From Pseudonocardia autotrophica (GTDB lineage Bacteria > Actinomycetota > Actinomycetes > Mycobacteriales > Pseudonocardiaceae): 64,000 bases of DNA. Position 1 is the first letter of the stretch. Every line of letters begins with the position of its first letter. Position numbers and translations under genes: made by a program. The DNA is taken from the NCBI RefSeq assembly GCF_003945385.1, contig NZ_AP018920.1, forward strand, positions 6,634,001 to 6,698,000. Reading direction: 5' to 3'. The notes beneath the pieces were generated by a model. It had not been told where the DNA came from and did no database searches. It was given only the letters and a program-made list of their open reading frames with translations. This document shows positions 20,716 through 36,239 of this stretch, piece after piece.

Positions 20716-21654
<939 letters not shown>

Positions 21655-21668
21655 CTACGGAAACAGTG

Positions 21669-21682
21669 TGTTGTAAACAACA
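21669..21682. promoter_or_regulatory. TGTTGT/ACAACA palindrome
   Basis: TGTTGTAAACAACA is symmetrical except for its central AA. It lies 3 bases from the CRP-like site on the moaC-distal side, so two dimeric regulators or one pair could bind here. Confidence 0.4.
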
Positions 21683-21685
21683 AAC

Positions 21686-21699
21686 GTGATGCACATCAC
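21686..21699. promoter_or_regulatory. CRP/GlxR-type binding site
   Basis: GTGATGCACATCAC matches the CRP consensus GTGA-N6-TCAC exactly. In M. tuberculosis the CRP homologue Rv3676 is known to control rpfA. Here the site is 69 bases before moaC and 358 before the rpf start. Confidence 0.6.
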
Positions 21700-21768
21700 T
21701 TTTTATCATGCCGCGGGCGGGACGGGCCGACCACGCCGCGTGTCCGGCGCCACCGTAGGGTCGGCCGG

Positions 21769-22266
21769 GTGAGTAGCGAGCTCAGCCACGTCGACGAGGC
21801 CGGGGCGGCCCGCATGGTGGACGTCTCGGAGAAGCAGCCCGGGCGCCGTGCCGCGGTCGCCACCGGGGTACTGCGGACCACCGCCGAGGTCGTCCGCCTG
21901 CTGGAGTCCGACGGCCTGCCCAAGGGCGACGCGCTGGCCACCGCCCGGATCGCCGGGATCATGGGCGCCAAGCGCACCCCGGACCTGGTGCCGCTCTGCC
22001 ATCCGATCGCGATCAGCGGGGTCACCCTGGACCTGGTCAGCGGAACCGACGGCGCGGCCGGACAGGTCGAGATCCGGGCCGAGGTGCGGACGACCGACCG
22101 CACGGGCGTCGAGATGGAAGCCCTCACCGCGGTCGCCGTCGCCGGCCTCACCCTGCACGACATGATCAAGGCGGTGGACCCGGCGGCCGTGCTGGACGCG
22201 GTGCGGGTCGAACGCAAGGACGGCGGGAAGACCGGGCACTGGACCCGGCCGGAGGACCGGTCGTGA
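21769..22266 (+). CDS. moaC: Cyclic pyranopterin monophosphate synthase MoaC
   Basis: The enzyme completes formation of cyclic pyranopterin monophosphate, the first stable molybdenum cofactor intermediate. The 165-residue protein has the family markers PLCHPI, EVEMEALTAV-type core (here VEMEALTAVAVAGLTLHDM) and KAVDP. GTG 21769 is selected from the family N terminus; the frame upstream crosses the AT-rich regulatory region. GTGA overlap couples it to mog. MoaA and MoaD genes are not in the window. Confidence 0.95.
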   Translation: MSSELSHVDEAGAARMVDVSEKQPGRRAAVATGVLRTTAEVVRLLESDGLPKGDALATARIAGIMGAKRTPDLVPLCHPIAISGVTLDLVSGTDGAAGQVEIRAEVRTTDRTGVEMEALTAVAVAGLTLHDMIKAVDPAAVLDAVRVERKDGGKTGHWTRPEDRS

Positions 22267-22739
22267 GCGGCCGGAGCGCGCGGGTCGTCACCGCGTCGAA
22301 CCGGGCCGCCGCCGGCGTCTACGCCGACCGAGCCGGGCCGGTGATCACCGCCTGGCTGCGCGAGCGCGGATACGAGACACCCGATCCCGCGGTGGTCCCG
22401 GACGGCGAGCCGGTCGGTGGGGCGCTGCGCGCCGCGATCGGCGACGGCGTCGACGTCGTGATCACCACCGGGGGCACCGGCATCTCGCCCACCGACGCCA
22501 CCCCCGAGGCCACCCGGGCCGTCATCGACCACGAGGTGCCGGGGCTGGCCGACGCGATCCGGCGGGCCGGTGAGGCGGTCGTCCCGACCGCCGTGCTGTC
22601 CCGTGGCCTGGCCGGTGTGGCCGGCCGGACCCTGATCGTGAACCTGCCCGGCTCCCCGGGCGGGGTCAAGGACGGTCTCGGGGTGCTCGAGCACGTCCTC
22701 GAGCACGCCGTCGACCAGCTGCGCGGAGGTGACCACTGA
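22263..22739 (+). CDS. mog: MogA/MoaB-type molybdopterin adenylyltransferase
   Basis: The enzyme adenylylates molybdopterin before MoeA inserts molybdate. The 158-residue MoCF-fold protein shows TTGGTGISPTDATPEAT (residues about 68-84) and NLPGSPGG near 129. Start GTG overlaps the moaC stop by 4 bases and its stop overlaps moaE by 1 base, so three pathway enzymes form one tight operon. Confidence 0.94.
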   Translation: MSGRSARVVTASNRAAAGVYADRAGPVITAWLRERGYETPDPAVVPDGEPVGGALRAAIGDGVDVVITTGGTGISPTDATPEATRAVIDHEVPGLADAIRRAGEAVVPTAVLSRGLAGVAGRTLIVNLPGSPGGVKDGLGVLEHVLEHAVDQLRGGDH

Positions 22740-23167
22740 TGGGTGCACAGGTGTTGCGCGCCGCGGTCGGCGAGGAGCCGCTCGACGTCGACGAGCACGC
22801 GCGGCTCGTCGAGCACGCGGCGGCCGGCGCGGTCGTGACGTTCGCCGGGGTGGTCCGCGACCACGACGGCGGGAGATCGGTGCACGGGCTGGAGTACAGC
22901 GCCCATCCCACCGCGGCCCGGATCGTCGCCGAGGTGGCCGAGCAGGTCGCCGCGAACACCCCGGGCGTGCGCGCACTGGCGGTCAGCCACCGGATCGGCC
23001 CGCTGGCGATCGGCGAGGTCGCGCTGGCCTGCGCGGTCGCGGCCGAGCACCGCGGCCAGGCGTTCACCGCCTGCGCCGAGCTCGTGGACGAGGTGAAGCG
23101 GCTGCTGCCGGTGTGGAAGCACCAGCGCTTCACCGACGGCACCGACGAGTGGGTCAACTCGACCTGA
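22739..23167 (+). CDS. moaE: Molybdopterin synthase catalytic subunit MoaE
   Basis: The large subunit of molybdopterin synthase transfers sulfur from MoaD thiocarboxylate onto the pterin. The 142 residues show GAVVTFAGVVRDH near the start and the C-terminal catalytic stretch LLPVWKHQRFTDGTDEWVN, where the lysine is the known active-site residue. ATG 22739 overlaps the mog stop by one base. A strong bidirectional hairpin follows. Confidence 0.95.
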   Translation: MGAQVLRAAVGEEPLDVDEHARLVEHAAAGAVVTFAGVVRDHDGGRSVHGLEYSAHPTAARIVAEVAEQVAANTPGVRALAVSHRIGPLAIGEVALACAVAAEHRGQAFTACAELVDEVKRLLPVWKHQRFTDGTDEWVNST

Positions 23168-23175
23168 GCGACGGA

Positions 23176-23217
23176 ACGGCCCGGGCCCCTCCGCGCAGGG
23201 AGGAGGGCCCGGGCCGT
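23176..23217. terminator. Bidirectional hairpin terminator, moaE and rpf copy 2
   Basis: Perfect 13-bp arms, 23176-23188 (ACGGCCCGGGCCC) and 23205-23217, lie between convergent genes. The inner bases can extend the stem with CTCC/GGAG-type pairing. It is well placed to stop both transcripts. Confidence 0.8.
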
Positions 23218-23298
23218 CGTCCGCCGGGGCCGGCGCTGGGGACACCGCTACCCCGTACCGCGGCCCCGGATGGCGGTCCGGGGCGGCGGGAGCACCGA

Positions 23299-23853
23299 TC
23301 AGCCCAGCTTGAGGGTCTGCCCCACACTGATCACGTTCACGTTCGAGATGCCGTTCAGCGAGGCGAGCCGCGAGACGGAGGTGCCGTTCGCCGCGGCGAT
23401 CCGGCCCAGCGTGTCGCCGGACTTGACGGTGTAGCCGCCGCCGGACGCCGCCGGAGCGGCGGGCGCGGCCGGGGCCGACGCCTTCACACGCTTGCCCGGG
23501 TCGGCCGAGTGGCCGCGGATGCCCAGCTTCGAGGAGCAGGCGGGCCAGGCTCCCCAGCCCTGCGAGGCGAGCACCCGCTCGGCGACCGCGATCTGCTCGG
23601 ACCGGCTGGCGTTGTGCGCCGAACCGGTGCCGCCGAAGGCGCGCCAGGTGCTCGGCGCGAACTGCAGCCCGCCGGAGTACCCGTTACCCGTGTTGATCGA
23701 CCAGTTGCCACCGCTCTCGCACTGCGCGAGCTGGTCCCAGACGCTGTCCGGGGCGGCGTTGGCGGTCCCGGCGATCGCAGCCGTGGCGCCGACCGTGACA
23801 AGTCCCGCCACGGCCACGCGCAGGAGACTTCGGCCCTTGGGTCCCTGAGACAT
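23299..23853 (-). CDS. Resuscitation-promoting factor with LysM domain, copy 2
   Basis: A paralogue of the product at 20716, with the same layout in 184 residues: signal sequence ending near ANA33, Rpf domain with C45-E46-SGGNW and a second cysteine in WPACSSK, an Ala/Pro linker, and LysM (YTVKSGDTLGRI) at the end. The [11 protein letters not shown] core is identical in both copies, so a duplication is likely. It is convergent with moaE, placing moaC-mog-moaE between two rpf genes on the opposite strand. Confidence 0.93.
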   Translation of the reverse strand: MSQGPKGRSLLRVAVAGLVTVGATAAIAGTANAAPDSVWDQLAQCESGGNWSINTGNGYSGGLQFAPSTWRAFGGTGSAHNASRSEQIAVAERVLASQGWGAWPACSSKLGIRGHSADPGKRVKASAPAAPAAPAASGGGYTVKSGDTLGRIAAANGTSVSRLASLNGISNVNVISVGQTLKLG

Positions 23854-28953: not shown

Positions 28954-30324
28954 ATGACCGCCGCGGCACGTTTCCCGAGCCGCCGGACCCCCTCGCCCCA
29001 TGCGGATCGGAGCGCGGGGCCCCGGCCGCGGCCCGATCTCGACGCGCTCACCGGGCTCCGCTCGGGCAAACCGTCGTTCTACTCGGAGTACCGGGTCAAC
29101 GCCGAACGGCTGCGGCGGGTGATCGGCTCGCTGGACCGGATCTCTGCCGCGCTGGTGCGCACGATGGAGGGTTCCGAGGCGCTGGTCCGCGCCGTCGCCG
29201 ACGCCGCAGCGGACCACCTGTCGGCGGACTGGGTCGTGCTCGCGCTGGTCGACGGCGAACTGACCGACGCCGTGCCCCGGCACGTGGTGATCGGGCCGGA
29301 CGGAGTCGAGTGGGCCGACCTGCGGATGGTGCCGGACCGGGTGCGCAGGCACATCGCGCTGCTGCAGGGCGGGACCGGCGCCGAGGACGACTCCGGCCGG
29401 CGGCACCTGCACGTCCCGATCCGGTTGAACGGCCGCACCGTCGGCGGGTTCGTCGCCTGGACCCCGCCGGACCGGGAGATCGACGACACCGACCACTCGG
29501 TGCTGCGCATCCTGGCCGGCCAGACCGCGTCGGCACTGCAGAACTGCGCACTGCTGGACCGGGCGGAGCGGCTGCACGCCCGCACCGCGGCGCAGGCCGA
29601 GGACCTGCGCACCCGCAACGACGAGCTGATGCGTACCCAGCAGGCGCTCGGGGCGGCCCGCCAGCGCGAGGTGCTCGACAACGAGCGGCACCGGATCGCC
29701 CGCGAGCTGCACGACAGCGTCACCCAGTACGCGCTGTCCGCCGGCATGCACATCGAGCTCTGCCGCAGCGAGATCGACGATCCCCGCCTGCTGGAGCACC
29801 TGAGCACCGCCAAGGACCTGACCCGCCGTGCGGTGGAGCAGCTCCGCTCGGCGATCTACGCCCTCAACGACGACGACCACGCCGACAAGGACCTGCCCTC
29901 GATGCTGCGGCAGCTGTCCACCGTGCACATGCCCGACGAGCTGCGGGTCGAGGTCACGATCGGCGGCACCCCGACGGCGCTGCCGCACGAGCACGAGCAG
30001 TCGCTGTTCCGGATCGCCGGCGAGGCGCTGTTCAACACCGCGATGCACGCGTCGGCGTCCCGGGCGGTGGTCCGGCTGGCCTACCAGCCCGACCGGGTGC
30101 GGCTCTCGATCTCCGACGACGGCGGGGCGTCGCCCGACCAGATCCGCCGCACGCTGCGCGCGGCGTCGGTCCGCGGCCCGTCGGGCGAGCACCGCGGTCT
30201 GGTCAACATGGACGCGCGGGCCCGGGAGATGGGTGGCACGCTGCGGTTCCGCCGGTCCCGGATCGGCGGGTTGCAGGTGCAGGTGGACGTCCCGTCCGGG
30301 GCGGCCGGGAGGGAGATCCCGTGA
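28954..30324 (+). CDS. GAF-domain sensor histidine kinase (HisKA_3 type)
   Basis: A soluble 456-residue kinase: a GAF sensor domain at about 60-205, a coiled segment, the HisKA_3 phosphoacceptor block ERHRIARELHDSVTQ with H253, and a C-terminal ATPase domain with SISDDGGASPDQI and RGLVNM. No transmembrane helix is seen, so it senses a cytoplasmic signal. It starts 25 bases after the dehydrogenase gene and shares GTGA with the response regulator, forming one three-gene unit. The family resembles MadS/ErcS-like kinases; that naming is tentative. Confidence 0.88.
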   Translation: MTAAARFPSRRTPSPHADRSAGPRPRPDLDALTGLRSGKPSFYSEYRVNAERLRRVIGSLDRISAALVRTMEGSEALVRAVADAAADHLSADWVVLALVDGELTDAVPRHVVIGPDGVEWADLRMVPDRVRRHIALLQGGTGAEDDSGRRHLHVPIRLNGRTVGGFVAWTPPDREIDDTDHSVLRILAGQTASALQNCALLDRAERLHARTAAQAEDLRTRNDELMRTQQALGAARQREVLDNERHRIARELHDSVTQYALSAGMHIELCRSEIDDPRLLEHLSTAKDLTRRAVEQLRSAIYALNDDDHADKDLPSMLRQLSTVHMPDELRVEVTIGGTPTALPHEHEQSLFRIAGEALFNTAMHASASRAVVRLAYQPDRVRLSISDDGGASPDQIRRTLRAASVRGPSGEHRGLVNMDARAREMGGTLRFRRSRIGGLQVQVDVPSGAAGREIP

Positions 30325-31013
30325 GCACCACGGACGTACGGGGTGGTGGGACGGCCCGCCGGGAGCGACCGGCTGTCCGGCCGATCCGGATCGTGTTGGT
30401 GGACGACCACTCGATCATGCGGCAGGGCCTGCGGGCCGTGCTGGAACGCGAGGAGGACCTGCGGGTGGTCGGCGAGGCGGGCAGCGCCGCCGAGGCCATC
30501 GCCGCCGTCGCCGCGAGCCGCCCGCAGGTGGTGCTGCTGGACCTCAAACTGGCCTCGGGCCCGCAGACCGACGGGCTGGAGGTCTGCCGCAAGCTGTGCG
30601 CCGACCACCCCGGGATCGGGGTGCTCGTGCTGACCACGTTCGCCGAGGACCGGCTCGTCGTCGAGTCGGTGCAGGCCGGGGCGCGCGGCTATGTGGTCAA
30701 GGACGTCGACACCACCGAGCTCGTCCGGGCGATCCGGGCGGTCTCCCGCGGGGAGAGCGCGTTCGACGCCCGCTCGGCCTCGGCGATGGTGCGGTCGCTG
30801 TCCGGTGGGATGCCGGACCGGGAACGGCTCACCGACCGGGAGCTGGACGTACTGCGGCTGCTGGCCCGTGGGCTGTCCAACCGCGCGATCGGCACCGAGT
30901 TGTTCATCTCCGAGACCACGGTCAAGTTTCACGTGGGGAACCTGATGCGCAAGCTCATGGTGTCCCGCCGAGCCGAGGCGGTCTACGCCGCCACCAAGCT
31001 GGGACTGCTGTAG
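30321..31013 (+). CDS. LuxR/NarL-family response regulator
   Basis: A 230-residue response regulator with a receiver domain (VDDHS near 32, phosphorylated D74 in LLDLKLA, K in VVKDVD) and a C-terminal LuxR helix-turn-helix (LTDRELDVLRLLARGLSNRAIG). The start GTG 30321 overlaps the kinase stop, so the pair is co-translated. The last 78 bases (30936-31013) have a degenerate second copy at 32657-32734. The nearest target is presumably the dehydrogenase operon. Confidence 0.92.
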   Translation: MSTTDVRGGGTARRERPAVRPIRIVLVDDHSIMRQGLRAVLEREEDLRVVGEAGSAAEAIAAVAASRPQVVLLDLKLASGPQTDGLEVCRKLCADHPGIGVLVLTTFAEDRLVVESVQAGARGYVVKDVDTTELVRAIRAVSRGESAFDARSASAMVRSLSGGMPDRERLTDRELDVLRLLARGLSNRAIGTELFISETTVKFHVGNLMRKLMVSRRAEAVYAATKLGLL

Positions 31014-31018
31014 CCCGA

Positions 31019-31136
31019 CGCGTTCCGCGGAACGCGGCTGGTGCTCTCCAGCGCGTTCCGGTGCAGTACGCGGACCCCGGCCCGGTGCGTGCCGCGGAAC
31101 GCAGCCCGAGGCGTTCACGTGCGTTCCGCGGAACGC
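31019..31136. repeat. Palindrome array A (GCGTTCCGCGGAACGC family)
   Basis: Perfect copies at 31019-31036 (18 bp, CGCGTTCCGCGGAACGCG) and 31121-31136 (16 bp), one near-perfect copy at 31087-31102, and half copies at 31052-31060 and 31111-31116. They follow the response-regulator stop by only 5 bases. The order and intervening sequence (AACGCAGCCCGAGGCGTTC) recur in array B, so the arrays are related by duplication. Confidence 0.88.
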
Positions 31137-31144
31137 GGCCGGCC

Positions 31145-31172
31145 CTGCCCCTGCCCCTGCCCCTGCCCCTGC
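31145..31172. repeat. CTGCCC hexamer tandem repeat
   Basis: Four full CTGCCC units and a partial fifth directly follow palindrome array A. No equivalent follows array B, so it arose after or independently of the duplication. Confidence 0.85.
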
Positions 31173-31584
31173 GGCGGTGAGGTGCGATCGGGCCGTGAGT
31201 GGAGATCATCAGTTCTGACGATCTCCTCCGGCGCTCCCGCGCTCCGGGATGACGCTGCGCTCGCCGGAACCGGTAGTCACGCGGTGAAGGTCTCCCCCCG
31301 TCTCCTCACCTCTGCCCGTTCGGCACCGACGATCACCGGATATGGCGCGGCGCCACCGCCGGCAGTCGAGGAGATGCCGCCGAACGTGGCCACAGCAAAC
31401 GTGGCTGTAACAGATGTGGCCGCAGCGGACATGGCCGCGGCGGCACCTCGATTCGGCCGGGCGAGATCGTGACGACCGGGTCCGACCCGATGCGGCTGGC
31501 CGGGCCGCCGGGCGGATTCACCTCGGCGATGTCGTTCACCAGCTCACAGGTGCCGGTCGAGCGGACGCCACCGGAGCGGTCGCT

Positions 31585-32469
31585 GTGAACAACGCCCGCC
31601 GGCGTCTCCGCGACGACGACTACTGGCGTGCCCACCGCCACCAGCCGTGGCTCGTCCTCGGTGGGTTCCTGCTGCTGATATCGGTCCTCGCCGCGATCAC
31701 CGGCCAGGACGAGGAGACCCTGGCCGGAACGGGTGGACGCACAGCAGCCGGCGCGACAGGGGGCTCGACGGAACCGGCGCTCTCCCGGGCAGGGATTGCG
31801 CCGGAGCTGTCGAGCCCGGTATCGGCGGAGACCACCGGGGCGGACCTTCCTGGGACGGTGACCGGTCAGCGGCGCGTGTCGCAGATCATCGACGGCGACA
31901 CGATCGTCCTCGCTGCCGGCGACCGGGTCCGGGTGCTGGGCATCGATTCCTGCGAATCGGGCACGTCCGGCGGCCTCGCCGCAACCATCGCCGCGCGCGA
32001 TGCCCTGCGTGGAAAGACCGTGACGCTACGGGCCGAGCCGGGCGTCGACCGCGATCGTCACGACCGCCTGCTGCGCTATGTGGAAGCTCCCGGAGTAGGA
32101 GACTTCGGCAGGTACATGGTCTCCCATGGCACCCATACCGGCGTCTACGACGGCCGGAACGATGCCGCCTCGACCTACCTCGCATCCCTGCGCGCGCTGG
32201 GCGCGGAGAGAAGCTGCGGCGCAGAGCTGAGCACACGACAGCAACCCGCGGCCCGGGCACCGGCACCGGTGGATGCTCCCGCACCCGCGCCGCCCCGAAC
32301 CGCATCACCTCCGGCCGCGCCCGCCCCGGCGAGGGCTCCCGCCGGCGAGGCGTTCAAGAACTGCGCCGCCGCCCGCGCAGCCGGCGCCGCCCCCGTCCAT
32401 CGCGGACAACCCGGATACGGCCCGCACCTGGACCGGGACAACGACGGGATCGGCTGTGAGTGGTCCTAG
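31585..32469 (+). CDS. Membrane-anchored SNase-like nuclease with Excalibur domain
   Basis: A 294-residue protein: one N-terminal helix (about 22-38), a staphylococcal nuclease-like domain at 97-213, a Pro/Ala linker, and a C-terminal Excalibur calcium-binding domain (257-294) ending DRDNDGIGCEWS. Nuclease residues can be matched to the SNase pattern: D103-G-D105, R116, D121, E124 and D160-R161. It likely acts outside the cell or at the wall on DNA or RNA. GTG 31585 is chosen, with GGAG 8 bases upstream. The gene lies between two copies of a response-regulator fragment plus palindrome array, so it may be an acquired insert. Confidence 0.82.
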   Translation: MNNARRRLRDDDYWRAHRHQPWLVLGGFLLLISVLAAITGQDEETLAGTGGRTAAGATGGSTEPALSRAGIAPELSSPVSAETTGADLPGTVTGQRRVSQIIDGDTIVLAAGDRVRVLGIDSCESGTSGGLAATIAARDALRGKTVTLRAEPGVDRDRHDRLLRYVEAPGVGDFGRYMVSHGTHTGVYDGRNDAASTYLASLRALGAERSCGAELSTRQQPAARAPAPVDAPAPAPPRTASPPAAPAPARAPAGEAFKNCAAARAAGAAPVHRGQPGYGPHLDRDNDGIGCEWS

Positions 32470-32656
32470 CCGGACAGCGACATGCCCGGCGCACGATGGT
32501 GGCACCCCTCGCTCGAGGAAGGACGGCACCGCGCACGAGACGGTCCAGGGCAGCGTGGCCGGGCCGAGCGAGATCCGGGAGTCCAGCGAGCGACCAGCGC
32601 ACGGGCTCGGCAATGCAGTTCGGCTCCGGGGCCGCCGCCACAGCCACGGCCACCCG

Positions 32657-32734
32657 GGAAACCTGATGCGCGAGCTCCTGGTGTCCCACCGTGCCGAGGC
32701 GGGTCTCGTGGCCACCGGGCCAGGGCGGCTGTAG
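32657..32734 (+). pseudogene. Degenerate copy of the response-regulator 3' end
   Basis: These 78 bases align codon for codon, without gaps, with 30936-31013, matching at 61 positions by hand count. The fragment encodes GNLMRELLVSHRAEAG and shares the same in-frame TAG stop. Weaker resemblance may extend about 40 bases upstream (GLGN against GLSN). There is no receiver domain, so it is a remnant. The next bases match the sequence after the true gene and lead into array B. Confidence 0.85.
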
Positions 32735-32750
32735 CCCGGCGCCATCGGTC

Positions 32751-32884
32751 GGAACGCGACCCGGTGCGTTCCGGTGTGCTCCGCAGAGACCTGACCCGGT
32801 GCGTTCCGATGCGTTCCGCGCAACGCAGCCCGAGGCGTTCCAGTGCCCTCCGCGGAACGCGGCCGGCGCGTTCCGCGGAACGCG
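32751..32884. repeat. Palindrome array B (GCGTTCCGCGGAACGC family)
   Basis: A perfect 18-bp copy at 32867-32884 is identical to the first copy of array A. A one-mismatch copy is at 32811-32826, a partial copy (CCGCGGAACGC) at 32850-32860, and half copies at 32751-32757, 32766-32773, 32801-32808 and 32835-32841. It ends 94 bases before the DUF222/HNH gene. Confidence 0.86.
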
Positions 32885-32978
32885 AAACCGGAGTCGGCGG
32901 CCGCTCGTTGTCGGACCCCTGGTGCACTCTTGTGCGAACACACGTTCGACGACGGACGTCCCGACGCAGGGGGAACCG

Positions 32979-34703
32979 ATGAGCACCGACCACGGCACAG
33001 GGCCCGATCCGCTGCTACCGCCGAAGCCGCTGCCCGAGCTGGAGTCGGAGCTCCTGGGGCTGGCCGGGCACATCGCGGCGGCGGAGTGCCGGTTCCTGCA
33101 GCTCCTGGCCGAGTTCGACCGCCGCGACGGCTGGGGCGGCGTCGGCGTGCGTTCCTGCGCCCACTGGCTCTCCTGGCGGGCGGGAATGAGCATGCGGACG
33201 GCGACGGAGCACCTGCGTATCGCCCACGCCCTGGAGAACCTCCCGCGGATCCGGGCCGAGTTCGCGGCCGGGCGGATCTCCTACTCGAAGGTCCGGGCGA
33301 TCACCCGGGTGACCGGCTCCGACACCGCGGCGCTGGCCCGCATCGCCGACCGGATCACCACACCGGGAGCGGCCGGATCCGAGGCCCCCGGATCCCGGGC
33401 AGCCGCTCCCGGCGGCGGCACCCCGCAGGCGGGCGGCCAGGTCGTGCCCGGTGGCTCCGACGAGGGCACCGCAGGCGCCCCGTCCGTCGACACGGACGAC
33501 GACGCCCCCCATGCCGGACCCGGCCGGGCTGTCGATCCCGCTGCCCATCCCGCCGTCGAGCCTGCCCTCGGCCACACCACCGGCACCGCTCCCGAGCCCG
33601 GCCTCGATCCCACCGGCGACGGCCCCCACCCGGCTCTCGACCCGGATGCCGAGTCCGACCCGGACCTCGACGTCAGCACCGGCACCGGCACCGGCACCGG
33701 CACCACGACAGCACCGGCCGGCGTCTCCGTCGCCGATCCCGACGTCGCGGAACAGATCCTGCTGAACCTCGCCCGCTCCGGCACCGCGAGCCACGTCGAG
33801 ACGGTCGTCCGGGCGGTCCGCCGCCGCGCGACCCCGCCCACGGTCACCGCCGCCCGCCGCACCCTGAGCTGGTACCACGACACCGACGGGTCCCTGGTCG
33901 TCCGCGGCCGGTTCACCCCCGAGGACGGCGCGGAGCTCGTCGCCGCCCTCACCGCCCTGGTCCCGGCGCCCATCCCGGTCGGGCAGGACCCCGAACAGGC
34001 CCCCGGCCCGGCCGCCGCCCCGGACGGGGCCCGGCGGGCCGACGCACTGCTGGAGCTCGTCCGCAGGCAGGGCACGGACGCACCCGTGGTCGCCCGTGGC
34101 GAGGCCCGGGTCGTCGTGCACATCGACGCGAGCACCGGGACCGCCCGGCTCGCGGACGGGCCGGAGATCCCCGGCCCCACCGCGGAACGCCTGGCCTGCG
34201 ACGCCCGCAGCCGGGCCCTGCTCGACGATCGCAGCCGGAACCGGCTCTACCTGGGCCGCTCCCGGCGGCTCGCCTCCCCGGCACAGATCGCCGCACTCAC
34301 CGCCCGCGACTGCGCGGACGGTGGGGGTTGCCGGTTCCCCGCCTGCGGCAGCACCCGGTACCTGCACGCCCACCACGTACAGCACTGGCTGCGCGGCGGA
34401 AACACCGACATCGACAACCTGGTCCTGCTCTGCGGGTTCCACCACCGGCTGGTGCACGACCACGGCTACCTGATCCGCTACACCGACGGGCGCTGGGAGT
34501 TCCGGCGTCCGGACGGCGTGCCGGTCACCGGGGCCGGTGCACCCCTGAGCGGTGACCAGAAGGTTCTGGTCGACCGGAACACGAGCGCCGGCCTGGGGAT
34601 CGACGGTCGCACGCTCACCCCCGACTGGTACGGCGACCGGCTCGATCCCGGGCTGTTCCTGGACGCCCTGCTCCCTCCGGTGGTCCCCGCCGCGGCGGCC
34701 TGA
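32979..34703 (+). CDS. DUF222/HNH endonuclease-like protein (13E12 family)
   Basis: A 574-residue protein with a DUF222 domain over most of its length and a C-terminal HNH motif, visible as CRFPACGS, HAHHVQHW, GGNTDIDNLVLLC and HHRLVHDHG at about 453-495. Its middle has a low-complexity insert encoded by repeats, including a GTGTGTGT run. Members of this family are frequent in actinobacteria, vary in copy number, and include the REP13E12-associated mycobacterial proteins. ATG 32979 follows GGGGGAA. Its activity is not established; DNA cleavage is inferred from HNH. Confidence 0.87.
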   Translation: MSTDHGTGPDPLLPPKPLPELESELLGLAGHIAAAECRFLQLLAEFDRRDGWGGVGVRSCAHWLSWRAGMSMRTATEHLRIAHALENLPRIRAEFAAGRISYSKVRAITRVTGSDTAALARIADRITTPGAAGSEAPGSRAAAPGGGTPQAGGQVVPGGSDEGTAGAPSVDTDDDAPHAGPGRAVDPAAHPAVEPALGHTTGTAPEPGLDPTGDGPHPALDPDAESDPDLDVSTGTGTGTGTTTAPAGVSVADPDVAEQILLNLARSGTASHVETVVRAVRRRATPPTVTAARRTLSWYHDTDGSLVVRGRFTPEDGAELVAALTALVPAPIPVGQDPEQAPGPAAAPDGARRADALLELVRRQGTDAPVVARGEARVVVHIDASTGTARLADGPEIPGPTAERLACDARSRALLDDRSRNRLYLGRSRRLASPAQIAALTARDCADGGGCRFPACGSTRYLHAHHVQHWLRGGNTDIDNLVLLCGFHHRLVHDHGYLIRYTDGRWEFRRPDGVPVTGAGAPLSGDQKVLVDRNTSAGLGIDGRTLTPDWYGDRLDPGLFLDALLPPVVPAAAA

Positions 34704-34713
34704 GGACCGGCGG

Positions 34714-35574
34714 TCACGGCTCGTCCAGGAACCGCACGATCCGCGGGACCTGGCCCAGCACAGCGTGTCCGGCGCCGGGCACCAGCTCGACCCGCGCGTC
34801 CGGGCAGAGCCGCACGAGCCGCTCCCGGGTCCGCACCGGATCGAAGACGCGGTCCCGCTCGCCCAGCAGGGCGAGCATCGGCATCGTCAGCCGACTCAGG
34901 GCGGCGTCGTCGAACAGCGGGAAGCGGGCGGTGCGCGGGCGGAAGTGCTCGAAGAGCAGGCAGATCTCATCCAGCACCTCAGGATGTTCGTGACCGTCCA
35001 GACCCGTGACGATCTCCGCTGAGCGCCGCCGTCCGCGCGACCCGAACGCGCTCAGCAGGAACGCCGGGGCGACCTTCCGGAACGTCTGGTCCCCGATCCC
35101 CGCGGGGCACACCAGGGCCAGCCGGTTCACCCGTCCCGGATGCCGCGTCGCGAAGTCGGTCGCGGTCCATCCGCCGAGCGAGATGCCGGCGATGTCGGTG
35201 GCACCGATCTCGAACTCGTCCAGGATCCCGGCGAGCCAGTCGGCGGTCGCCGGCGTCGTGAGATCGAGCCGGACCGGGTCGCTGAGCCCGGGCTCGCCGA
35301 GCAGATCGACCAGCAGGACGCGTCGGGTGGCCGCCAGGAGCTCGACGCCGTCCCGCCACACCGCGCTGTTCGCCCCGGAGCCGTGCAGCAGCACCAATGG
35401 GCTGCCCGTCGGATCCCCGCAGGTCAGCACGGCGGTCGTGCCGTGGCCGGTCGCGATGCGGTACCGCTGCACCGGCACCGGCCAGGCGTCCAGCTGCTGT
35501 TCGTAGCGCTCGCGGACGACGGTCGCTCCTGCCTCGCTGTGGTAGATGCCCGTCGTCGCGCTGGTTCCTCCCAT
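34714..35574 (-). CDS. Alpha/beta-fold hydrolase
   Basis: A 286-residue hydrolase with oxyanion HGSGAN, nucleophile motif GISLGG, acid in GERDRVFD and histidine in GAGH, so a complete catalytic triad. It is predicted cytoplasmic; no signal peptide is seen. It is convergent with the HNH gene (10 bases apart) and divergent from a membrane protein. Substrate is unknown; such enzymes cleave esters, lactones or C-C bonds. Confidence 0.85.
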   Translation of the reverse strand: MGGTSATTGIYHSEAGATVVRERYEQQLDAWPVPVQRYRIATGHGTTAVLTCGDPTGSPLVLLHGSGANSAVWRDGVELLAATRRVLLVDLLGEPGLSDPVRLDLTTPATADWLAGILDEFEIGATDIAGISLGGWTATDFATRHPGRVNRLALVCPAGIGDQTFRKVAPAFLLSAFGSRGRRRSAEIVTGLDGHEHPEVLDEICLLFEHFRPRTARFPLFDDAALSRLTMPMLALLGERDRVFDPVRTRERLVRLCPDARVELVPGAGHAVLGQVPRIVRFLDEP

Positions 35575-35639
35575 GCGCCGATCGCAGCACGCCCGGCCCT
35601 GCCCGCGCGATCGGGTTTCGGGGCCGGTAGACAGTGCCG

Positions 35640-36239
35640 ATGCGCTGGTATGCCGAACGTCCCGCTCGTCTGGCCCGGCAGGTCGTCGCCGATCTGCTCG
35701 CCGTGCTGTGGGCGGCGCTGGCGGTGCTCGCCGGGATCGCGGTGCACGACGGCCTGCGCACCCTGGAGGGCCCCGGCCGCTCGCTCGTCGCGGCGGGCGG
35801 GCGGATGTCGGAGGTGTTCACCGGGATGGCCGGCGCGGTGTCGTCGCTCCCGTTCGTCGGGGCCGATCTCGCCGTCGCGCTCGACCCGGCGACCCGGGCC
35901 GGTGCCGATCTCGCGACCGCGGGCCACGAGTTCGGACGGACCGTCGGGACGTTGGCGACCGGGTCGCTGGTGGTGGTGCCGCTGCTGATGCTGATGCCGG
36001 TGCTGCTGGGCTGGCTCCCGCTTCGGCTGAACTACGCCCGCCGGGCCGGGGCCGCGGTGGCCGCGCGGGCGAGTGCCCCGGACCTGCTCGCCGTGCGCGC
36101 GCTGGCCCGGGTGCCGGTCTCCCGGTTGACCCGGATCGCTCCCGATCCGGCGGCCGCGTGGCGGGCCGGGGACCCGGCCGTCGTCGCCGGCCTCGCCGCG
36201 CTGGAGCTCACCGCGCTGGGCCTGCGACCCCGGGTGTGA
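35640..36239 (+). CDS. Hypothetical membrane protein
   Basis: A 199-residue protein of unknown family. Two hydrophobic segments are clear: about 14-36 and 107-128 (SLVVVPLLMLMPVLLGWLPL), with a soluble loop between and an Arg/Ala-rich C-terminal region. A GTG two codons upstream (35634) is an equal start candidate. It is divergent from the hydrolase and 22 bases from the convergent CPBP gene. Confidence 0.72.
   Translation: MRWYAERPARLARQVVADLLAVLWAALAVLAGIAVHDGLRTLEGPGRSLVAAGGRMSEVFTGMAGAVSSLPFVGADLAVALDPATRAGADLATAGHEFGRTVGTLATGSLVVVPLLMLMPVLLGWLPLRLNYARRAGAAVAARASAPDLLAVRALARVPVSRLTRIAPDPAAAWRAGDPAVVAGLAALELTALGLRPRV

Follow-up and report, generated by a model that had tools for sequence, protein, structure and literature searches.

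In REPtrons, repetitive extragenic palindromes (REPs) are associated with a partner gene, TnpA-REP (RAYT), which encodes an HUH transposase according to the sections consulted of two papers (PMC8266576; PMC3116915); TnpA-REP processes single-stranded REPs in vitro (PMC8266576, same sections). The REP13E12 repeats of Mycobacterium (13E12 family) contain multicopy DUF222/HNH genes and are described, in the parts consulted of the relevant reports, as repeats and as targets of phage integration (PMC10589994; PMC2323391), with frequent gene conversion at their loci (PMC13061034). The window analysed here is a stretch of 64,000 nucleotides of the Pseudonocardia autotrophica chromosome (contig NZ_AP018920.1, positions 6,634,001 to 6,698,000), in which a response-regulator gene of the MadR family (madR) is followed by a palindrome array, a thermonuclease-like gene, a second copy of the madR 3′ end with its own array, and a DUF222/HNH gene. 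Coordinates refer to the window unless stated otherwise, and G and L numbers are our own labels for genomes and loci. The account that we prefer, with a probability of roughly 0.55, has two layers: the DUF222/HNH gene belongs to a mobile unit edged by a 16-bp palindrome, GCGTTCCGCGGAACGC, and the madR end and its array were later duplicated around the nuclease gene.

As in REPtrons, the palindromes here are short, mostly extragenic (15 of 46 loci lie in genes) and often solitary, one gene family is bracketed by them, and the presence of gene and repeat is linked across genomes, but the partner is a DUF222/HNH nuclease-type protein instead of an HUH transposase. Multicopy DUF222/HNH genes are shared with REP13E12, for which palindromic ends are unreported in the descriptions compared, whereas the edges here are palindromic; a protein that induces breaks would be compatible with the high gene conversion at REP13E12 loci, which is not, though, evidence for such a protein. 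Insertion sequences that target REPs are likewise flanked by palindromic repeats, but the gene of the present unit has no Pfam transposase match and madR sites without an HNH gene lack the palindrome. The likeness to IscB and group II intron maturases is limited to the HNH part (E 0.007 to 0.06 over about 50–60 positions, a weak resemblance), and DUF222 and HNH are the only families that Pfam recognises in the protein. In the open literature searched, the best-ranked papers of which were covered in part, no earlier description of palindromic ends on DUF222/HNH genes, or of a partnership between an HNH gene and a palindrome, was found; a paper on an M. smegmatis HNH nuclease mentions neither DUF222 nor 13E12 in its main text (PMC9416677).

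The last 78 bases of madR recur without gaps at 32657–32734, with 61 of 78 bases identical to 30936–31013, as the original prediction had counted by hand from the sequence; the next best ungapped place in the window, on either strand, reaches 46 of 78. The gene itself (30321–31013, + strand; start codon uncertain) encodes a LuxR-type response regulator (NF047785 of NCBIfam, 348 bits against a cut-off of 300; Pfam Response_reg and GerE). Its best 28 named or binned database matches nearly all carry the label Pseudonocardia. The arrays behind the two copies are related, as had also been claimed, and share the block AACGCAGCCCGAGGCGTTC (at 31098 and 32822), with the nuclease-like/Excalibur gene (31585–32469, + strand) between them. 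Alignment of the two regions, which had been proposed as a check, joins copy 1 (30935–31143, + strand) with 32656–32867 in one gapped block of 78% identity (BLAST E 5.6e-36 against the whole genome) that spans the gene end, the stop codon, the bases after it and the array. Copy 2 of the gene end (32656–32734, + strand) retains the same stop codon. Array 1 (31014–31145) has palindromes at 31020 (exact), 31087 (one mismatch) and 31121 (exact), and array 2 (32735–32884) at 32811 (one mismatch), 32845 (two mismatches) and 32868 (exact). Because the palindrome is not private to these arrays and has 29 exact copies in the genome (reversed control, 0), similarity of the arrays alone would prove little. 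The coding part of the repeat alone, however, scores 89 (300 shuffles: mean 16, maximum 28), and similarity does not exceed chance upstream of the repeat inside madR (score 21; 188 of 300 shuffles as good) or past the arrays (score 26; 40 of 300).

When the two copies are aligned with 13 orthologues, there are 12 sites at which all 13 share the base of copy 1 and not that of copy 2, and none at which the reverse holds; the post-stop TAGCCCG is common to both copies and is complete in no other row. Since the orthologues agree with copy 1 and never with copy 2, the latter is most simply read as a spare copy that was made in this lineage and is now decaying. The 22% difference between the copies is similar in magnitude to the divergence of madR and madS from eight relatives at fourfold sites (0.30–0.44), so that the duplication is old, although we attach no date to it. 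An old tandem duplication with decay, one of the two origins originally proposed, thus fits both this polarity and the tandem duplications at other palindrome loci described below, and the claim that the event was not recent is borne out by the divergence.

The madR locus was compared at 32 places: the window, three further genomes (G002, G014 and G009) and loci L049–L076, some of which are near-identical records (e.g., L058 and L059). A nuclease gene within 3 kb downstream of madR occurs only in the window. The empty site that had been sought is present in P. ammonioxydans (L050), P. parietis (L051) and G002, where the order is madR, palindrome(s), DUF222/HNH gene, palindrome(s), an α/β hydrolase gene (not in G002) and a conserved "transmembrane gene". 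A second madR 3′ end is present in none of the 28 loci L049–L076 (up to 7 kb downstream; some loci are short), and among the genomes compared the duplicated end is found in this genome only. When two loci with less than 1 kb downstream (L064 and L072) are left out, HNH gene and palindrome occur together in 4 of 30 loci and neither occurs in the other 26. At the 28 madR loci without an HNH gene, the transmembrane gene (35634–36239 in the window, + strand; no Pfam match) lies 15–137 bp 3′ of madR in 14, 319–1086 bp in 4, and was not found behind madR in 10. Because the palindromes here go with the HNH gene and belong to the duplicated block, we infer from this distribution that the duplication probably came after insertion of the HNH gene.

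The DUF222/HNH gene of the window (32979–34703, + strand; Pfam DUF222 2.4e-24 and HNH 1.1e-6, the only Pfam domains in the protein, with no transposase family) starts 111 bases after the start of the palindrome at 32868, the presumed left edge of the unit, and is one of a subclade of DUF222/HNH genes bracketed by GCGTTCCGCGGAACGC. Relatives were taken from a search of 41 genomes (at least those given a locus), to which further fetched places were added. Sixteen copies are near full length, all in palindrome-bearing species (the window's own, L216–L222, L237–L240, L260, L261, L050 and L051). With up to two mismatches allowed, a palindrome lies within 260 bp on the left in 16/16 and within 250 bp on the right in 14/16, hence on both sides in 14/16; both nearest palindromes are exact in 8 of the 16. 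Left out of this set were L223 (contig end; right palindrome present), L259 (internal stop codons, 43–65%; palindromes at 2653 and 5811), the fragments L262, L263 and L178 (palindromes present; L178 is an internal-deletion derivative), L227 of G006 (partial, no palindrome), L228 of G012 (one site, inside the gene), L225 of G013 (56%, none), L224 of G007, L226 of G024 and L242 of G005 (49–50%, none), and L229–L236 from other genera and G001 (no palindrome); L241, L243 and L244 show copies that the count already includes. Bracketing does not extend to more distant DUF222/HNH genes.

The similarity between copies tends to end at the palindromes. The 14 copies that have a palindrome on either side give 87 pairs once 4 same-site pairs are excluded. 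Of the DNA alignments between them, 19 extend as far as the right palindrome, and every one of these stops 0–11 bases beyond it; 19 extend to the left palindrome, 16 of them stopping 0–7 bases outside. The similarity of two G011 copies to a third, L294 (93–95%), stops 3 bases beyond the right palindrome. The left flanks of the units form two alike sets. In G004, G011 and G022, two types of conserved sequence of about 100–150 bp are seen 5′ of the left palindrome of bracketed units. The original prediction's suspicion of a mobile element probably stands, with the difference that the element is the neighbouring DUF222/HNH unit and that its edges are palindromes and not the gene end.

Exact GCGTTCCGCGGAACGC occurs in 11 of 25 Pseudonocardia genomes, and as one copy in 1 of 16 genomes of other genera. 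A related HNH gene at E 1e-40 is present in 11/11 Pseudonocardia genomes with the palindrome and 2/14 without (Fisher 2e-5), at E 1e-60 in 10/11 and 0/14 (3e-6), and at E 1e-20 in 11/11 and 4/14 (5e-4), statistics that ignore species relatedness and use thresholds picked after the data were seen. This reservation is one of several that weigh against a mobile palindrome-edged unit. The right palindrome is missing in the window's own copy and in an interrupted copy in G014. In three pairs the similarity continues for 65–123 bp past the left palindrome, which leaves the position of the left end tentative; on the right, L260 and L261 have 80 bp of 75% identity in common, outside the palindrome and at shifted positions, and L290 and L291 match for 48–50 bases past it. 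The remaining pairs are too diverged, their alignments stopping inside the gene region short of the ends. No target-site duplication was seen by eye outside the palindromes, although the palindrome might itself represent such a duplication. No trace of the unit's ends at E 1e-3 is present in 54 of a partly overlapping set of 63 palindrome loci, and G007 combines a single palindrome with an HNH gene of just 49%, which is unbracketed. In three species (L162, L179 and L190), the palindrome occupies an identical position within a conserved stretch that was called as coding, so that some copies are not insertions. Compensatory variation was sought among near-array variants with two or four mismatches, and 0/25 are perfect palindromes; one symmetrical variant exists, which two related G004 copies carry at their right end. 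Finally, a LexA-type box, by our own pattern, precedes only 7 of the 16 bracketed copies.

Bracketing is not a property of DUF222 genes at large, a possibility that we considered and rejected: of 16 other DUF222 loci in this genome (which has 22 DUF222 domain matches, some genes matching twice), one has a two-mismatch site about 2 kb away, and G028 has 0/14. No HNH relative was found on plasmids at 1e-40, and the palindrome occurs in five stretches of viral contigs. In G014, the DUF222/HNH gene is split (L299, G014:C2:4752000-4760500; also L264), with its C-terminal part about 9.5 kb away and an open reading frame at the break that on our own reading, made without a family scan, resembles a serine recombinase; the arrangement recalls phage integration into REP13E12, as far as the sections of that report consulted describe it (PMC2323391).

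Across the palindrome loci classified (46, with two at locus edges left out, each classed by its first palindrome and by gene calls from our own crude model), 31 lie between genes (convergent at 15, tandem at 13 and divergent at 3) and the other 15 inside called genes, whereas 78% of random positions fall inside genes and about 20% between them. At 4 of 10 other palindrome loci in this genome, tandem repeats of 68–85% identity contain the palindrome, and at 2 more, other tandem repeats lie beside it. The exact palindrome is single in 35 of 37 loci from G004, G009 and G005; arrays are nevertheless not unique to this genome, because G002 and G014 also have clusters of three or four. Two Rfam matches fall below the curated scores. 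The 29 exact copies are confined to the part of the 7.25-Mb chromosome (G000:C1) that runs from 5.76 Mb round to 0.78 Mb, within about 1.5 Mb of dnaA (near base 764), or about a third of its length. A role as an origin-proximal chromosome-organising site was rejected, since copies in G009, G002 and G014 are spread along the chromosome and those in G004 over several contigs, as judged without reference to dnaA in these four genomes. At chromosome positions 6616496-6619531 (L015), another gene for a LuxR-type response regulator has a palindrome pair a few bases past its stop codon.

Between the palindrome at 32868 and the HNH gene, a pattern match at 32935–32949 gives the site CGAACACACGTTCGA, which resembles the actinobacterial LexA (SOS) box. 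Such boxes suggest that some HNH copies may be induced by DNA damage. In the parts consulted of a study of Mycobacterium tuberculosis, 13E12-family HNH genes are among the proposed LexA targets (PMC4181829). LexA-type boxes were also seen in 9 of the 16 loci of other DUF222 genes in this genome (L265–L280).

In the account preferred here, a DUF222/HNH gene edged by the palindrome on both sides, and often preceded by a LexA-type box, would be a small transposing unit of Pseudonocardia, which most simply reached the interval between madR and the next gene by an ancestral insertion, in this genome and some relatives; many palindromes also stand without the HNH gene, which is likewise true of REPs and their partner gene. 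In this lineage, the left-end palindrome would have grown into an array, the 3′ end of madR together with this array (about 210 bp) would have been tandemly duplicated, the foreign-looking nuclease gene would have come between the copies, and the spare madR end would then have decayed. Duplication first and nuclease second is the preferred order, because tandem duplications beside the palindrome recur in this genome and their identities bracket the 78% of the madR ends.

We further propose, tentatively and as less likely than not, that DUF222/HNH proteins are the enzymes that mobilise this family of palindromic repeats, in an HNH-based equivalent of REP/RAYT. By analogy with TnpA-REP, we infer that the HNH protein, perhaps induced through LexA, may act on the palindrome by cutting or nicking its hairpins, and that repair could copy the bracketed unit or a bare palindrome elsewhere; duplication of neighbouring gene ends, as at madR, would be a by-product of such repair. 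To our knowledge, there is no agreed role for DUF222/HNH genes, which are numerous in some actinobacteria. If the proposal is true, these widespread, functionally unassigned DUF222/13E12 genes would gain a role as selfish elements, and a palindrome-edged subclade could explain duplicated gene ends and arrays such as those of the window. The pairing of this subclade with a matching dispersed repeat makes action of the protein on the palindrome directly testable.

The gene between the copies looks foreign by its composition and distribution. Its GC content at third codon positions is 0.80 (37 long open reading frames of the window: 0.76–0.98, lower quartile 0.89, median 0.93), it was missed by a simple codon-based gene caller, and the nearest database protein beyond its own cluster is 58% identical over 69%; among the 25 genomes, similar DNA occurs in pieces only. 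Four contigs, taken as other strains of this species, each encode both the nuclease and the HNH protein. The product has an Excalibur domain (Pfam, 5e-18), a weak match to a thermonuclease model (E 1e-3, far below the model cut-off), homologues named thermonuclease or micrococcal nuclease and, on our own reading, what appears to be a hydrophobic N-terminal stretch. It has no match in the phage collection and partial matches in four plasmid records only. PADLOC gives a weak SNc+LTD match for it, and no match for the HNH protein.

The main rival to a prior duplication is insertion in one step, in which a break or staggered nicks at the palindromes would have been repaired by capture of nuclease DNA with copying of the left flank (madR end and array) to the far side, which would make duplication and insert a single event. 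The insert is flanked by the two madR-end copies, as a single event would leave it, and a parallel exists in G009 (L182, 2989–5428), where a gene that G005 lacks at the corresponding locus (L189) is flanked by a direct repeat of 95/98 bp (93%). The palindrome there, however, lies in a coding stretch of both genomes and is therefore not tied to that insert, and the four tandem duplications at other palindrome loci here have no recognised insert; we regard a single step as the less likely course, if one to be taken seriously. The L182 insert is a gene of 735 codons, and its direct repeat begins at the stop codon of the upstream gene. The second origin originally proposed, a mobile insert using the 3′ end of madR as attachment site, would make the nuclease the cargo of an integrative element and would account for a gene end directly repeated on both sides of the insert. 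We rejected it as the main explanation and hold it to be very improbable: no integrase family was recognised by Pfam in the nuclease, HNH and hydrolase genes, in the interval from madR to the transmembrane gene; no recurrent use of the site was seen, since a second 3′ end was found at none of 28 other madR loci (L049–L076, including short ones); the array, which accompanies the HNH gene at madR, is part of the repeat; and the nuclease has only the phage and plasmid record given above.

Other explanations concern the palindromes themselves. They could be ordinary terminators or regulator sites that travel with the HNH gene, which would itself mobilise nothing, the copies being spread by general recombination or by a different enzyme encoded elsewhere in the genome, for example a RAYT. 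The distance from a stop codon to the start of the array is 4 to 61 bp in several cases, the RNA fold of array 1 is better than its shuffles (z −4.0), and divergent genes flank 3 of the 31 intergenic loci against about 6 expected at random. Palindromes also stand 5′ of HNH genes, though, and the DNA similarity between copies ends at them, which makes this explanation unlikely in our judgement. Alternatively, the palindromes could be pre-existing REP-like targets, the HNH unit inserting into them and doubling them as a target duplication. The 54 loci without trace of the unit and the excess of intergenic over random positions (31/46 against about 20%) would suit this, and insertion sequences that target REPs are known, as far as the parts consulted of PMC1525189 show. 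Pre-existing targets should, however, also occur without the HNH gene, and the palindrome is found in 0 of 26 madR loci free of HNH, in 0 of 12 genus genomes lacking an HNH match at 1e-40 and in 1 of 15 at 1e-60 (G006, an incomplete genome), so that we rate this somewhat below the regulatory explanation and above the integrative element. The palindrome-edged mobile unit, followed by duplication of the madR end, remains the account that we prefer.

Upstream of madR lies the gene for a sensor kinase of the MadS family (28954–30324, + strand; NF047786, 551 bits against a cut-off of 500). Downstream of the HNH gene, the α/β hydrolase gene identified by Pfam (34714–35574, − strand) occupies the same place in L050 and L051, and is followed by the transmembrane gene, which in many relatives stands directly 3′ of madR. 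Elsewhere in the window, within 20803–23778, a direct repeat pairs about 20803–21228 with 23383–23778 (428 alignment columns, 72%).

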